Virus record (IMG/VR): IMGVR_UViG_3300036945_000296
Coordinates: 1 to 38,358 of that record
Direction: 5' to 3' (one strand)
Length of the DNA: 38,358 bases
Source: a virus
Shown: in pieces, positions 1,537 through 17,774 of the stretch
How the letters are laid out: every line of letters starts with the position of its first letter
Numbering within the stretch: position 1 is the stretch's first letter
Program-made: the position numbers and the translations under genes
Notes under the pieces: model-generated
The model's input: only the letters and a program-made list of their open reading frames with translations
Databases searched by the model: none
What the model was told of the DNA's origin: nothing

Positions 1537-3738
1537 ATGCCATACGGAGACGACATCACCGAGGGTTTACCCTTTGTCCTATCAAACCCAGCAGGAAACA
1601 TTAACTACACAGCAACTGGTTATGCCTATGACATAGCCATTGCTGGACTTCCTTTCTTCATTTCACCACTGGATGACTCACCATACCGTCGTGTAACAGC
1701 GCAGTATCGTAAGAACCAGTTTGATACTAGCCGTGAACCAGGTGAGCAGACTCTCACCGGTTGGTGGTTACGTAGCCAGTCATCATTCCACCTGGGTCAA
1801 GGAATCAAGTTCTACGAGCCAGCTCAAGATGAGTCACTGCGCTTTCAGTACACAGAGTCTAAAGGCCTAGATGTATGGACCAAGGGACAGGCAACACTGC
1901 TTAAGTCCTGCAATAACCAGCACATCACTACAGGTGGCATCAGAACTGATGGCCGTCCGTGGCAGACAATGCGTTCTATCCAGTGGGTAACTAACAGCAA
2001 CACCTACAACGGTGTGCTTCTTGCAGATGAGTATGACGTAGACAAGGTCTTCCCTGCTATTACAGTGTCAATTAACACCAAGGCTTTGACATCTAACGTA
2101 GCAACGCTGACAACTACAGCAGCACACGGTCTATCTACAGGTATGCAGATCACCATTACTGGAGTAGATGCAACCTTTAACGGTTCATACCGCATTACAG
2201 GTGTACCTACAACTACCACCTTTACCTATGCAAAGACTGCATCTAACGTACCATCAACTGCAGTATCTCCAGTAGGTACAGGCGTTGCAGATGTTATCCA
2301 CTTTGTGGACTACAACGCAGGTACAGATGACCCAGTGTATTCAATCTGCGATGACGGAGTCTATGCCTATTGGGTCACCAATGACACAGCATCTGGCAAG
2401 TTGGAAGTTAACAAGAAGCTACTTAATGCTGACTCAACTACATCTCCAACAGTTATGTTTACTGCTCCTGGTATTACTGTAGTTAACGCTGTTATTGAGT
2501 ACACAAAAGAGCGTTTGATTATGTGTGTCAACGACAAGATCTATGAGTTTGCAAGCAGCGCAACAGCGCTACCTACTCCTGTCTATGCACACAATGATCC
2601 AGACCACGTGTTCACCAGTATCTCATCATCAGGTGCTGCTATCTACGTAGCAGGTTACAGCGGTATCCAGTCAAACATCTACAAGTTCACACTTGAGTCA
2701 ACAGGTGCAATGCCTACGCTGTCATCTGCCATCACTGCAGCTGAACTGCCAGTAGGTGAGATTACATTTAAGATCAGTTACTACCTTGGCTATATGGCTA
2801 TCGGAACCAACCAAGGTGTACGCATTGCTGCAGTATCAGACCAAGATGGATCTATTAACTATGGACCATTACTGTTTGAATCAGAGCAGCCAGTCTATGA
2901 CTTTGCTTTCCGCGATAAGTTTATCTGGGCGTCAACTGGTGTTGACGGGCAGGTAGGCGTTACTCGTATCAACCTTGGCCAAGAGATCAGCCAGCTAGTC
3001 TTTGCTTACGCTTGGGATCTATACAGCCCAGCAGATACTCTGACTCATCACACAACAGCGTGTGCATTTATGGGTGAGACTAACCGCCTTGCATTCTGCA
3101 ACGCAGGTAATGGTTCAGATGGAACCATCTACATAGAGTCAGCTACAGAACTAATAGCAACTGGATACCTACGTACAGGTTACATCCGTTACAACACACT
3201 TGAGGGCAAGATCTTCAAGTTAATTCAACCACGCATTGACACCACAGATGGTGCTTTCTCAATGCAGTCAATTGATGCAACTGGTTCTGCCTACAACATC
3301 GGTACCTTCTCACAAGGTACAAGCGTTCCAGAGGTTAACGTTAACTACCCAGTAGGAGCACAGCAGTATGTAGGCTTCAAGTTCACCTTGAACCGTTCAT
3401 CTACTGACTCATCACTTGGACCACTATTTACTGGATACCAGGTTAAAGCTCTACCTGCTATCCCACGTCAGCGACTTATTCAATACCCAGTGATGTGTTA
3501 TGACCACGAGATGGATAAGTTCAACAATGAGGTTGGCTACGAAGGCTCTGCCTATGCTCGTATGTCACAGCTTGAATCAGTAGAAAATGTTGGAGACACC
3601 ATCAAGATTGAAGACTTCCGTACAGGTGAGTCTTACATCGGACTCATCGAAGAGATGGACTTCATCAACCGTACCCCAACCGATAAGCGATTCTCCGGCT
3701 TTGGAGGATTGCTCCTAGTAACTATCCGGAGCGTTTAA
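1537..3738 (+). CDS. Large tail protein, probable tail nozzle/tubular protein
   Basis: A 733-residue protein with no signal peptide or membrane segment. It is rich in short beta-strand-like stretches (for example VYSICDDGVYAYWVTND and AIYVAGYSGIQSN), suggesting a beta-propeller body. Residues about 178-250 hold an inserted beta domain (ALTSNVATLTTTAAHGLSTG and following) of a kind recurring in actinophage structural proteins. Size and fold pattern resemble the nozzle (gp12-like) proteins of podoviruses, which cap the tail and contact the adaptor. It stands just upstream of the lysis genes. The start has AAGGAG. The nozzle identity is inference; a minor tail protein of another tail type is the alternative. 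Confidence 0.65.
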   Translation: MPYGDDITEGLPFVLSNPAGNINYTATGYAYDIAIAGLPFFISPLDDSPYRRVTAQYRKNQFDTSREPGEQTLTGWWLRSQSSFHLGQGIKFYEPAQDESLRFQYTESKGLDVWTKGQATLLKSCNNQHITTGGIRTDGRPWQTMRSIQWVTNSNTYNGVLLADEYDVDKVFPAITVSINTKALTSNVATLTTTAAHGLSTGMQITITGVDATFNGSYRITGVPTTTTFTYAKTASNVPSTAVSPVGTGVADVIHFVDYNAGTDDPVYSICDDGVYAYWVTNDTASGKLEVNKKLLNADSTTSPTVMFTAPGITVVNAVIEYTKERLIMCVNDKIYEFASSATALPTPVYAHNDPDHVFTSISSSGAAIYVAGYSGIQSNIYKFTLESTGAMPTLSSAITAAELPVGEITFKISYYLGYMAIGTNQGVRIAAVSDQDGSINYGPLLFESEQPVYDFAFRDKFIWASTGVDGQVGVTRINLGQEISQLVFAYAWDLYSPADTLTHHTTACAFMGETNRLAFCNAGNGSDGTIYIESATELIATGYLRTGYIRYNTLEGKIFKLIQPRIDTTDGAFSMQSIDATGSAYNIGTFSQGTSVPEVNVNYPVGAQQYVGFKFTLNRSSTDSSLGPLFTGYQVKALPAIPRQRLIQYPVMCYDHEMDKFNNEVGYEGSAYARMSQLESVENVGDTIKIEDFRTGESYIGLIEEMDFINRTPTDKRFSGFGGLLLVTIRSV

Positions 3739-5047: not shown

Positions 5048-5053
5048 GTGACT

Positions 5054-5611
5054 ATGACAACTATCGCAGCCATTCAAGGTATTGATTACGCAGTGCTAGT
5101 TGCTGACTCACAGATCACTGAGGATAACCTGGTGACTCTTGCAACCAGCACACCCAAGATCGTAGAGGTGGGTAAGTTCCTCGTCGGTATCTCAGGTGAC
5201 ACCAGACCAGGTGACATCCTTTCGTACAACTGGAAACCACCCATCTATCGTGGTGAAGATCCCGTCCAGTTTATGGGAAAGAAAGTTATACCAAGTCTCA
5301 ACCAAACATTTATGGATAACAACTACGACTACAACAAGGTGGACAAAGATGGCGGTTTTGATTATCTCGTGGCTTTTAACGGCAATGTCTTTAGGATTGC
5401 TTGTGATCTCTCTTTTTTCCAAAGTAATGTCGGAGCGTACGCTATTGGTAGTGGTGGGCAGTTTGCTCTTGGTTATTTGTATTCAAGCTGTAAGCCTGAT
5501 ATGGAGTTAGCCTACGCAAAGAGACACGCCCGTAAAGCCGTTGACATTGCTTCAATCCTTGACGCCAATACTGGCAAGCCTTTACAGTTGGTTGTACAAG
5601 AACGGTTCTAG
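5054..5611 (+). CDS. Proteasome/HslV-like Ntn-hydrolase
   Basis: A 185-residue protein starting MTTIAAIQG. After removal of Met the N-terminal Thr is exposed, as in HslV and proteasome beta subunits. Counting from that Thr, Asp falls at 17 (VLVADSQIT), exactly as in HslV, and a Lys at 34 (TPKI), one residue from the usual Lys33; the glycine motif VGISGD follows. Length fits a beta subunit without propeptide. Later features include GGFDYLVAFNG and YAIGSGGQFALGYL, the latter resembling the conserved beta-subunit region before the last helices. Known relatives form rings that degrade unfolded proteins. Here it is the first early gene; possible roles are takeover of host protein turnover or trimming a phage protein. 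No partner ATPase is seen. Start 5054 rather than the GTG at 5048 is supported by the exposed Thr. Confidence 0.8.
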   Translation: MTTIAAIQGIDYAVLVADSQITEDNLVTLATSTPKIVEVGKFLVGISGDTRPGDILSYNWKPPIYRGEDPVQFMGKKVIPSLNQTFMDNNYDYNKVDKDGGFDYLVAFNGNVFRIACDLSFFQSNVGAYAIGSGGQFALGYLYSSCKPDMELAYAKRHARKAVDIASILDANTGKPLQLVVQERF

Positions 5612-10207: not shown

Positions 10208-10616
10208 TGATGACAAGAAGCGAGTGGGACACGATGCTACAGACTTTGCAGCATATGGGCTTCCAAATCCTGAGTTACGATACATCAACGGAAGTAGTAT
10301 TGATAAAGCCGATAGCGACAAGATAGATTACAAGCACGTTAAGTTTGTTACTGATGTGTGGGAAGTACTAGATGGTGCAGGTAACCTGCTCATCAAGAAG
10401 CACAAGGACTACGGCCCAACTAACATTAGTCTCTCACCTGGTGGACCACTCAATGGTCTGCGTGTGCGTATGCACGACAAGACAGCACGCATCAATCACC
10501 TGATTGACAGCGGTGCGACACCTGAGAACGAATCATTACGAGATAGCTTTATTGATCTACTCAACTACAGTGCGATAGCACTGATGGTGCTAGATGGTAA
10601 GTGGCCTCGTGACTGA
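10200..10616 (+). CDS. Nmad1/DUF1599-like protein
   Basis: A 138-residue protein whose C-terminal two thirds match the pattern of the Nmad1/DUF1599 family: KKHKDYGPTN, then G-L-R-V-R-M-H-D-K-T-A-R, then E-S-L-R-D-S-F-I-D-L-L-N-Y-S and a terminal GKW. The acidic and basic residues in these helices fit an all-helical nucleotide-binding site. Comparative studies link Nmad1 to DNA base modification or nucleotide clean-up in phages. Start ATG 10200 has GGGGAG four bases upstream and overlaps the primase end. The exact reaction is not known from the sequence. Confidence 0.75.
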   Translation: MYDDDKKRVGHDATDFAAYGLPNPELRYINGSSIDKADSDKIDYKHVKFVTDVWEVLDGAGNLLIKKHKDYGPTNISLSPGGPLNGLRVRMHDKTARINHLIDSGATPENESLRDSFIDLLNYSAIALMVLDGKWPRD

Positions 10617-11241
10617 TCTGCACCCAGTTGCATTTGAGTTAGCCTCTTCAGTGGCTACGACTATCTATCGCAGGTACAAGAACTACGTAGAAAAAGATGA
10701 CATCAAGCAGGAGTGTGTTGCTTGGGCTATAGGTCGTAGTGCTTACATCAACGAGCAGATGTCAGAGCTTGATGATGACAAGCGTAAGCACAATGAAAGT
10801 CGTATCGCATTTCAGATGCGCCGTGCAGCAGAACGTTATGCTCGCAAGGAAAAGGCGTCTAAGTCTGGGTATCAGACAACTGATGAGGCGTACTACAAGA
10901 GCGCCGAACTTGGTCAGTTGCTTCCTTATGTTATTGCATCCGTTGTAGATGGCACAGTACTAGAGCAGATCCAACAGATGATCCAGGATGGACAACCTAA
11001 AGGTAAGTCGTCACCATCAGAAGGTGGCAACCTATTGGCTACCTTAATTGACATCAAGCGTTGCTTCTTAAAGCTAGACATAGAAGATCAGAACATACTA
11101 AGGCTACGTCACTTCGATAGCCTGACACTCAAAGACATAGCAGCGCAGATGGAATGCGCTGTATCTACAGCAGACCGCAGATGTCAGCACTCTTTACGCA
11201 GACTTATTGATCTTCTAGGAGGGCCTAGTCCGTGGCAATGA
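10609..11241 (+). CDS. Sigma-factor-like protein with C-terminal HTH
   Basis: A 210-residue protein from GTG 10609 (ATG 10594 is the alternative). The N-terminal half resembles sigma region 2 (YRRYKNYVEKDDIKQECVAW and a basic helix rich in Arg and Lys). The C-terminus is a sigma region 4-like helix-turn-helix: LRLRHFDSLTLKDIAAQ then VSTADRRCQHSLRRL. The linker (about 125-145) is disordered. It could direct host polymerase to phage promoters, working with or against WhiB. It overlaps both neighbours. Confidence 0.8.
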   Translation: MTDLHPVAFELASSVATTIYRRYKNYVEKDDIKQECVAWAIGRSAYINEQMSELDDDKRKHNESRIAFQMRRAAERYARKEKASKSGYQTTDEAYYKSAELGQLLPYVIASVVDGTVLEQIQQMIQDGQPKGKSSPSEGGNLLATLIDIKRCFLKLDIEDQNILRLRHFDSLTLKDIAAQMECAVSTADRRCQHSLRRLIDLLGGPSPWQ

Positions 11242-15389: not shown

Positions 15390-15416
15390 GGGTTAAGGGT
15401 TAGGGTGTGCCGGGGG
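15390..15416 (+). other. G-quadruplex-type motif
   Basis: Four G-runs (15390-15392, 15397-15399, 15403-15405 and 15412-15416) with loops TTAA, TTA and TGTGCC fit the standard G3+N1-7 rule. More G-runs follow at 15479-15490 (GGGGGGTGGGGG). Confidence 0.65.
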
Positions 15417-15439
15417 TAGAGTCTGCCCGTATCTTTACA

Positions 15440-15475
15440 GTAAAACACGGTAGACAGTTAGGCCCGGACTGTCTA
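15440..15475 (-). repeat. 36 bp two-copy element, copy 2 (palindromic operator-like)
   Basis: TAGACAGT at 15451 and ACTGTCTA at 15468-15475 form a perfect 8 bp inverted repeat. The TAGACA/TGTCTA arms are again 13 bases apart, as in copy 1, and the flank on the leftward side is also similar. Confidence 0.75.
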
Positions 15476-15590
15476 GCCGGGGGGTGGGGGTCACCGGCCG
15501 GACGGCTCACGCGTACCCGGGGTTTGTGAATCCGGGCCGGGGTGTGTACATACTCCCCAAATAAATATTTCGACTAAAGTGAGATCCCAA

Positions 15591-15620
15591 TTGTGGCTCT
15601 GACCAGCGGTTTTATATACT
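15591..15620 (+). promoter_or_regulatory. Candidate sigma-70-type promoter of the late operon/leader RNA
   Basis: TTGTGG (15591-15596), 18 bases, TATACT (15615-15620). The start would fall near 15627, directly before the hairpin chain. There is no better candidate upstream of the terminase gene. Confidence 0.5.
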
Positions 15621-15626
15621 GTGACC

Positions 15627-15815
15627 AACGCCACACCGCGAAAGCGGGAAATGCTCTAAATTTCCTGCCTTATATATAGTAAGGGAGCAAAGCGGGGAGC
15701 ACTGGCTTTGCGACCTCGGTTGGCCTCTTGCGAGGCCCCTAGGCCGAGTACTAACTTACCCCTCAGTTCGCTGAACTCCTTCGGGCGCTAAGCCCGATGC
15801 TAGCGGCGCTTTTAG
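15627..15815 (+). ncRNA. Putative structured RNA/leader (hairpin chain)
   Basis: Five successive hairpins: CCGC-GAAA-GCGG (15636-15647); GCAAAGC/GCTTTGC (15687-15711); a two-part stem CTCGG plus GGCCTC-TTGC-GAGGCC plus CCGAG (15715-15748); TCAG-TTCG-CTGA (15763-15774); TCGGGC/GCCCGA (15781-15797). GCGGGAAAT can alternatively pair with ATTTCCTGC (15644-15668), excluding the first hairpin. A weak T-run (15809-15813) follows a GC-rich stretch. No frame of note is present. It could be a small RNA or the leader of the terminase message. Confidence 0.4.
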
Positions 15816-15828
15816 TTGGGATAGTTAT

Positions 15829-15867
15829 ATCTAACCAGGTGTTAGATGACATTCCCGAACCAGGTGT
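15829..15867 (+). repeat. Palindrome and direct repeats upstream of terminase
   Basis: ATCTAAC-CAGGT-GTTAGAT is a perfect 7 bp inverted repeat (15829-15847). AACCAGGTGT occurs at 15833 and again at 15858, 25 bases apart. Candidate operator or packaging-initiation site. Confidence 0.55.
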
Positions 15868-15914: not shown

Positions 15915-17774
15915 GTGGCAGAGAACTCGGCTGACATAGCCAAGCGTATTATCCTAAACGCTGTAGCTGAAGGTATGACCATTGAGCAGGCCACGGCCTC
16001 TGCCGGTAAGTCCATTAAGACTTACGAGTACTACCGTCGCACAGACAAGGTCTTTGCAGACAAGGTAGACCGAACCCGCCTGGGCTTAAAGGACAAGTCC
16101 TTCGCATCAGGTGATGTACACGATATAGACTTTACTGAGTTCCGTCAGAAGTTCCTACACTCTAGGACCTTTGACCACCAGAAGAACATTGTAGATGTGA
16201 TCGAGGGCCGTGAACCAGGTTGGCTTCACCCTTCTATGAAGTATGAAAAGGGTCTGGCTAATAACCGTATCCTTGTCAACATTCCGCCCAACCACGCCAA
16301 GTCAATGACTATTACCGTTGACTACGTCACCTGGCAGGTAGCACGCAATCCGAACTTCCGTGTTCTGATTGTGTCCCAGACCCAGCGACTAGCAGCTGAC
16401 TTTCTCTACGCCATCAAGCAAAGACTGACACATCCTAATTATGAAGCATTGCAACAGGCATATGCTGCTGGCGTAGGGTTTAACTCTAAGACCGCTTCCT
16501 GGCAAGCAACCCGCGTCACCTTCGGTGATGAGCTTCGTGAGTCTAGCGAAAAAGATCCAAACATCGAAGCCGTAGGTATCGGTGGTCAGATCTACGGTAA
16601 GCGTGCAGATATGATTATTGTAGATGACGCGGTCACCCTATCTAACGCCAATGACTTTGAGCGTCAGATCAAGTGGTTAACCCAGGACGTACGTTCTCGT
16701 CTTAACCCAACAGGTAAACTTATTATTATCGGAACTCGCGTAGCATCCGTGGATTTATACCGCGAGCTTCGCTCAGAGGATAGATACCCAGGTGGATTAG
16801 TCCCTTGGACCTATCTTGCTATGCCAGCACTACTCGAGGCAGATGAGGACCCAGACAACTGGGTTACCTTGTGGCCTAAGTCAGATGCTCCATTTGATGG
16901 ACAAGAAGAATCTGATAAAGATGAGAACGGCCTATACCCACGCTGGTCTGGTCGTAACCTTTACAACGAACGCCAAGCGATGGACACATCCACTTGGGCA
17001 CTTGTCTATCAACAGCAAGATGTTTCTGAAAACTCAGCTTTCGATCCCGTGTGCGTACGTGGTTCTATTGACGGTATGCGTAAAGCAGGTCCATTAGTTG
17101 CAGGTAACCCTGGCCACCCACGTGACCTTGGTGGTTACTCCATCATCTGCGGTCTTGACCCAGCGATGATTGGTGATACCGCAGCTATTTGTTATGCGGT
17201 AGATCGCAATACCAACAAGAGGTACATCGTAGATGCTATTAAGATTACTAGACCGTCTCCTGCCGATATTCGTGACCTTATATTTAATTGGACTTCCCTA
17301 TACGGCCCGTCTGAGTGGATTGTTGAACGTAATGCGTTCCAGTCTTTCCTTACACAAGATGAAGGAATCCGTCAGCACTTGGCATCACGCGGAGTGCTAC
17401 TGCGGGAACACCATACAGGTAACAACAAGTGGGACGCAGGCTTTGGTGTTGCGTCAATGTCAACTTTGTTCGGCACCAAGCAACACGACGGTAAACACCA
17501 CCGCGACAATCTTATCCATCTTCCATCAGATCAGACGGAAAATGTCAAGGCGTTAATCGAGCAGTTGATTACCTGGACACCTACTACTAAGGGCAAGACT
17601 GACTTAGTAATGGCGCTCTGGTTCTGCGAGATCCGAGCACGTGAGATGCTCAACTATGGTCAGTACAACTCACACCATCTGAAGAATCCGTTTTTAACTG
17701 GCGCTGAAAAGCGTAAGCGATTAGTAGTAAACATTGACCAGTTATTAGCAGACCAAAACAAAACATTCATCTAA
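15915..17774 (+). CDS. terL: Large terminase with N-terminal HTH-like segment
   Basis: A 619-residue packaging motor. Walker A is IPPNHAKS (123-130), Walker B is MIIVDD (233-238) and the nuclease acidic motif is GLDPAMIGDT near 414. The first 55 residues (IILNAVAEGMTIEQATASAG, then YEYYRRTDKVF) form a helix-turn-helix like those of small terminases, so a DNA-recognition part may be fused to the motor; no separate small terminase is seen. The start GTG 15915 has AAGGGAGA upstream. It is the first late gene after the structured leader. Confidence 0.92.
   Translation: MAENSADIAKRIILNAVAEGMTIEQATASAGKSIKTYEYYRRTDKVFADKVDRTRLGLKDKSFASGDVHDIDFTEFRQKFLHSRTFDHQKNIVDVIEGREPGWLHPSMKYEKGLANNRILVNIPPNHAKSMTITVDYVTWQVARNPNFRVLIVSQTQRLAADFLYAIKQRLTHPNYEALQQAYAAGVGFNSKTASWQATRVTFGDELRESSEKDPNIEAVGIGGQIYGKRADMIIVDDAVTLSNANDFERQIKWLTQDVRSRLNPTGKLIIIGTRVASVDLYRELRSEDRYPGGLVPWTYLAMPALLEADEDPDNWVTLWPKSDAPFDGQEESDKDENGLYPRWSGRNLYNERQAMDTSTWALVYQQQDVSENSAFDPVCVRGSIDGMRKAGPLVAGNPGHPRDLGGYSIICGLDPAMIGDTAAICYAVDRNTNKRYIVDAIKITRPSPADIRDLIFNWTSLYGPSEWIVERNAFQSFLTQDEGIRQHLASRGVLLREHHTGNNKWDAGFGVASMSTLFGTKQHDGKHHRDNLIHLPSDQTENVKALIEQLITWTPTTKGKTDLVMALWFCEIRAREMLNYGQYNSHHLKNPFLTGAEKRKRLVVNIDQLLADQNKTFI

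Follow-up and report, generated by a model that had tools for sequence, protein, structure and literature searches.

The element upstream of terL

In the window analysed here, a stretch of 38,358 nucleotides of virus DNA, the gap between a block of leftward open reading frames (up to 15068) and the rightward gene for the large terminase subunit, TerL (terL, 15915-17774), harbours a conserved non-coding structured element of about 180 bases at 15644-15824 in what is a freshwater virus of bacteria. Together with a block of upstream DNA the conserved unit spans from about 15574 (CTAAAGTGA) to about 15824 (TTTTAGTTGGGATAG), such that a first-pass annotation, which had placed a possible structured RNA at 15627-15815, pointed to the right region with inexact limits. 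Equally, its statement that the region has no coding frame holds among the relatives, as no frame stays open across 273 of them and their lengths fall into all residues modulo 3. The features of the locus are, in order:

15574-15582, plus strand: CTAAAGTGA, conserved directional DNA block, always oriented alike and lying about 73 nt ahead of P2 in 205 of 251 loci
15597-15611, plus strand: CTCTGACCAGCGGTT, promoter- or operator-like motif with a near-palindromic core, from alignments and counts of TGACCTGCGGTT
15615-15620, plus strand: TATACT, -10-like hexamer, presumed promoter of the RNA, with AT-rich counterparts in relatives
15620-15635, no strand assigned: P1, TGTGACCAACGCCACA, palindrome of the CRP/GlxR type TGTGA-N6-TCACA over the presumed start, from match counts in relatives
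15644-15668, plus strand: P2, hairpin GCGGGAAAT-N7-ATTTCCTGC, 94% of cells paired in alignment A1
15668-15687, plus strand: linker CCTTATATATAGTAAGGGAG, near-invariant, with an identity of 95% or more at most positions across 220 distinct loci
15687-15711, plus strand: P3, hairpin GCAAAGC...GCTTTGC, 31 different 5' arms with complementary 3' arms among 61 representatives
15716-15748, plus strand: P4/P5, GGCCTC-TTGC-GAGGCC and GGCC-CCTA-GGCC as overlapping alternatives inside TCGG...CCGA, P5 with 93.5% of cells paired
15755-15765, plus strand: CTTACCCCTCA, invariant columns of alignment A1, probably single-stranded
15765-15780, plus strand: P6a, closing pairs A15765-T15780 and G15766-C15779 around GC-TGTR-GC, with pair 150-166 of A1
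15782-15796, plus strand: P6, hairpin CGGGC-GCTAA-GCCCG, 75.9% of cells paired, replaced by GGGAGTTTACTCCC in one subclade
15809-15824, plus strand: CTTTTAGTTGGGATAG, conserved 3' box, with a strong hairpin directly before the T-run in 99 of 273 relatives
15915-17774, plus strand: terL (phrog_38, E = 1.7e-64), constant 3' neighbour of the element

Among viral metagenomes, 273 distinct relatives carry the element, each locus with a single copy. When viral contigs were scanned with TerL, 80 loci emerged, and blastn and nhmmer located a single copy of the element in all 77 that have sequence upstream of TerL. Two short-pattern scans that started from the element itself, and were thus blind to TerL, contributed about 200 further loci, and even in loci found by the element pattern alone the element lies directly upstream of TerL and is co-oriented with it. 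Wherever a downstream gene is detectable (284 of 284 loci), this gene encodes, on the same strand, a TerL of 74-100% identity that lies at a median distance of about 90 nt and at most about 640 nt away; 12 further loci end within 134 nt of the element and have no detectable downstream gene. A covariance model built from 39 sequences recovered the element in 76 of the 79 loci of the more divergent clade B. Of the three loci that it missed, two start too close to terL, which leaves 76 of 77 testable ones. The one real exception in clade B (L318) has 716 nt upstream of TerL without the element, and a lysine-rich coding gene seems to abut terL in its place.

Neither the element nor its TerL has a match in bacterial or archaeal genomes, so that a prophage context is lacking; equally, the covariance model did not detect the element in two Streptomyces phages, and the search for the nearest phage genomes at the DNA level gave no match. 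The clade is a large one of tailed freshwater phages, whose hosts are probably Actinobacteria. The window also carries a gene for a proteasome beta-type subunit (5048-5611; PF00227, E = 1e-12), which is unusual in a phage and suggests an actinobacterial host.

Conserved stems and compensatory change

The core of the element is ordered as P2, the linker CCTTATATATAGTAGGGGAG, P3, P4/P5, CTTACCCCTCA, P6a, P6 and the box TTTTAGTNGGG. Folding of 15622-15830 gives z = -2.65, with 4 of 200 shuffles equally good, and folding of 15641-15815 gives z = -2.35 on the plus strand versus -1.53 on the minus strand; as a z-score of such size proves little alone, conservation with compensatory change is decisive. 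Such change backs P2, P3, P5 and P6a. The clearest proof of RNA structure is P3, whose 5' arm reads, for example, GCAAAGC, GTAAAAC, GGGATATAC, GCAGTAAGC, GACTGTAGAC, GAGAGAAAC or CAGGTAGAC with the complement mostly 11-13 nt on; over the 61 representatives, Watson-Crick pairs in the best stem average 7.0 versus 4.2 in shuffled sequences, and double changes are seen at 5 of the 7 pairs. P2 likewise varies between CTAAAT/ATTTTAG, CAGGAAA/TTTCCTG and other forms, and its inner pairs (the outermost position, frequently unpaired, is not counted) contain 50 G-U against 7 A-C combinations, which identifies the plus strand as the folding strand. Pair 116-127 of P5 (A1 numbering) occurs as GC, UA, CG and AU, and the P6a pair 15766-15779 (150-166 in A1) as CG (20), GC (13) and UA (1) with zero exceptions.

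For P2 and P3 together, in a structure-blind MAFFT alignment, the covariation score amounts to 0.270 versus 0.152 in shuffled alignments (0 of 500 as high; slid versions at most 0.111), and for P2, P5, P6a and P6 to 0.175 versus 0.100 (0 of 500; slid versions at most 0.078). These covariation counts refer to related sequences and not to independent events, the number of different P3 arms being the more robust measure. A tree-based covariation analysis of 120 close sequences was weak since the sequences are too alike, and only 15766-15779 stood out clearly. Around P4/P5, putative overlapping alternative stems occur in some subclades, for example AAACCTTC...GAAGGTTT versus the P4 hairpin in L204. 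In relatives of a separate type (L037, L210, L215, L217 and L276) a short GTACCRCTAAATGCGGGATAG replaces the P6/terminator domain, and the CCACTAAA within it is the reverse complement of the TTTAGTGG box.

The hairpins of the first-pass annotation are present in the letters, including CAG-TTCG-CTG, CTCC-TTCG-GG, CCGC-GAAA-GCGG (15636-15647) and the pairing of GCGGGAAAT (15644-15652) with ATTTCCTGC (15660-15668), and the search for stem covariation that it had proposed finds stems kept by compensatory changes in relatives. The switch between two mutually exclusive conformations, which it had considered, is not sustained, as P2 is universal and the rival CCGC-GAAA-GCGG occurs in 3 of 225 elements. 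CCGC-GAAA-GCGG is nearly private to the phage of the window. A CCTTA/TAAGG hairpin is possible in the linker CCTTATATATAGTAAGGGAG of the same phage; the linker is unique in the window.

That the element is a structured RNA is close to certain, and very likely it is a real and undescribed one. The suggestion of an undescribed structured RNA before the terminase gene is upheld by conservation across relatives, by covariation and by the outcome of the Rfam comparison. Rfam 15, which includes pRNA, GOLLD, ROOL and 6C, gave no match at the gathering threshold for the window and 12 divergent members, and at E values up to 5 the sole match was a chance folP upstream of the element. Equally, no description of the element was found in the literature searched.

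DNA signals on both sides of the element

Upstream of the stems lie several DNA signals. The motif TGACCTGCGGTT / CTCTGACCTGCGGTT is found forward in 89 loci and reversed in 10, and is rare elsewhere; CTGACCTGCGGTT and ATGTCCGTTTTGG upstream of P1 are inverted in the types represented by L023, L025 and L030 and by L222, L252 and L273. In the window TTGTGG (15591-15596) is separated by an 18-nt spacer from TATACT (15615-15620), and these two hexamers had been proposed as a promoter. The -10-like half finds its equivalent in AT-rich hexamers, common in the relatives, that cluster 5-11 nt before the P1 palindrome, while TTGTGG as a -35 element is replaced there; in a sigma-70 promoter scan none passed, and the claimed promoter was not above chance. 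A phage-specific, T7-type-like promoter at TATATAGTAGGGGAG was rejected, as this sequence is unique in the window and the P2/P3 pairing speaks for it being transcribed itself. A 733-aa protein encoded in the replication gene region (1537-3738) belongs to phrog_11667 with function unassigned and gave no match in Pfam, NCBIfam or PDB and none to known polymerases. A sigma-70/ECF-like protein encoded at 10594-11241 is a candidate regulator of late transcription.

The palindrome P1 matches at least 8 of the 10 positions of TGTGA-N6-TCACA in 255 of 256 relatives versus 4 of 256 shuffled sequences. Its GTG/CAC core is invariant without compensatory changes and its inner positions are unpaired; P1 can therefore be read as a putative operator of the CRP/GlxR type in the DNA and not as an RNA stem. 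Its position at the presumed start would fit simple repression by a CRP-type protein equally well.

At the other end, 99 of 273 elements, versus 9 of 273 shuffled ones, have a GC-rich hairpin immediately followed by the TTTTAGT box, and these 99 elements use 58 different hairpin sequences. Judged from sequence, the combination of hairpin and T-run has the appearance of an intrinsic terminator. A strong hairpin of this kind is missing from the window and from 174 of the 273 elements, so that termination cannot be the universal mechanism. The 3' box TTTTAGTNGGG itself, kept with or without the hairpin, may be a DNA site.

A candidate late leader among known phage RNAs

We tentatively favour, with a confidence somewhat short of even, the reading that the element is a late-operon leader RNA that steers entry into late transcription. 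The start of transcription would lie at the -10-like hexamer 15615-15620 or directly downstream of it, covered by the CRP/GlxR-like operator, and the nascent RNA would fold P2, present the invariant linker and then fold P3 to P6. In about a third of the relatives the RNA would then meet the intrinsic-terminator-like hairpin and T-run just before terL. The folded leader might thereby decide whether an RNA polymerase that is held or terminated there proceeds into terL and the late genes, and a phage or host factor would probably read the P2-linker-P3 segment. The ground for this reading is a resemblance to the lambda arrangement of pR', 6S RNA and tR': the element keeps its place before terL, has an operator over the presumed start, folds into a structured leader and shows a terminator-like end in many members; furthermore, the sigma-70/ECF-like protein indicates that the phage possesses parts of a transcription machinery of its own.

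The sister clade (ct2KA10-like), whose TerL is about 47% identical, offers a comparison. The covariance model detects nothing upstream of TerL there, and a different structured leader, equally without Rfam match, occupies the same place about 50-400 nt before TerL (L381-L460 and L299; for example L396, L451 and L453). It consists of GTGTTCGGTTT, GGTTATCTTATAT and a hairpin with the constant loop AATATATAA on 13 different complementary stems, is preceded by CTCTGACCAGGGCTTATATATA, which is similar to CTCTGACCAGCGGTT, and lies behind a similar CTCTGACC...TTATATAT motif. A different leader at an equal place would be expected if the place needs a leader RNA. A bolder extension, which we consider unlikely as it stands, would see here a new class of late-leader RNAs in freshwater actinophages with at least two unrelated folds at the locus in sister clades, acting as a processive-antitermination or pause-release device. 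This device would be read on P2-linker-P3 while the RNA is being made and would be coupled to a host CRP-type operator, which would tie late expression to a host nutritional signal.

Alternatively, the element might be an independent trans-acting small RNA with its own promoter and an end at the TTTTAG box, which would target phage or host mRNAs by the C-rich CTTACCCCTCA. C-rich loops of Gram-positive and actinobacterial small RNAs are known to act on mRNAs, and the promoter-like signals, the terminator-like signals in many relatives and the invariant, single-stranded nature of the C-rich segment would all suit such a role. However, a trans-acting RNA would not require so strict a link to TerL, most clade A members (the window among them) have no terminator, and some relatives (L037 type) are devoid of the CCCC; we regard a small RNA as unlikely.

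A role in packaging, as an RNA or site element acting with the terminase in the manner of the phi29 pRNA, seems quite improbable. The element always adjoins terL and is confined to its TerL clade, and the proteins scanned showed no recognisable small terminase with a gene of its own. In addition, the zone from about 300 nt upstream of the element into its interior (about 15400-15780 in window coordinates) shows a several-fold enrichment of contig starts, a pattern that might reflect either a genome end or assembly breaks. As to a fixed genome end (cos), however, the starts do not fall on one base; the contig ends lack precision and fall within a variable stretch rich in repeats, as would be expected of assembly breaks. 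Equally, pRNA of the phi29 type comes from phages whose ATPase is a different, small one, and the operator over the start suggests regulation.

To a similarly low degree we credit a part in a replication origin, either by a primer-type transcript or as a single-strand hairpin region read as DNA. Perfect DnaA boxes TTATCCACA are strongly concentrated around the element, within about 400 nt upstream or 150-600 nt downstream (L001-L380), usually on one side only, and are almost absent elsewhere, a pattern that suggests a replication origin shifting around the RNA. On the other hand, such boxes accompany 79 of 156 clade A and 10 of 50 clade B loci (about 43%), while the element is universal, and the window has none nearby even at one mismatch. 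That the inverted repeats are an artefact, conserved just as protein-binding DNA sites, is highly improbable; P1 behaves exactly so, being invariant without compensation, but the P3 arms change completely yet stay complementary, the P6a pair alternates between CG, GC and UA without exception and G-U outweighs A-C on one strand.

The element represents a well-supported RNA family that is known in hundreds of natural variants. Its carriers appear to be phages of abundant freshwater bacteria, in which it occupies the point of the switch to late genes. Comprising forms with strong and with weak termination, two different folds for a single locus and an operator of host type, these variants constitute a ready data set on structure and function, and the way in which actinophages turn on their late genes becomes directly testable. 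Furthermore, many metagenomic phage contigs can be annotated with the covariance model.

Among known systems, the late leader of phage lambda comprises the promoter pR', the 6S RNA of about 194 nt, the terminator tR' and antitermination by Q. The element shares with it a non-coding leader of similar length in front of late genes, a -10-like sequence inside the transcribed leader and, in a subset (99 of 273, the window not included), a terminator-like hairpin before the first late gene. In contrast, the element is far more structured and conserved, the hosts differ and the terminator is missing in most clade A members; a Q-like antiterminator was not found among the scanned proteins, which represent part of the phage's proteins. 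Like the phi29 pRNA, it is a structured phage RNA tied to the packaging gene region, but there is no relation in sequence, structure or terminase and no Rfam match, the TerL here being of the phrog_38 type. GOLLD and ROOL (Rfam) are equally structured RNAs of phage or freshwater metagenomes with unknown function; they are much longer than the element, and neither matches in the region.

In actinobacteriophage infections, as with Rhodococcus phage WC1, intergenic transcripts rank among the most abundant RNAs (PMC10986025), which makes transcription of the element plausible. The RNAs of WC1 and of cluster A mycobacteriophages resemble the element as non-coding intergenic RNAs of Actinobacteria phages, some of them at the left genome end, whereas they were seen as transcripts and not as covarying structures (PMC10986025); a sequence relation to such highly transcribed RNAs was not found in phage records. 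We rate the element as a new RNA family of a known general kind, that of the structured phage leader or non-coding RNA, with a role that lies most plausibly in the control of the virus late genes.
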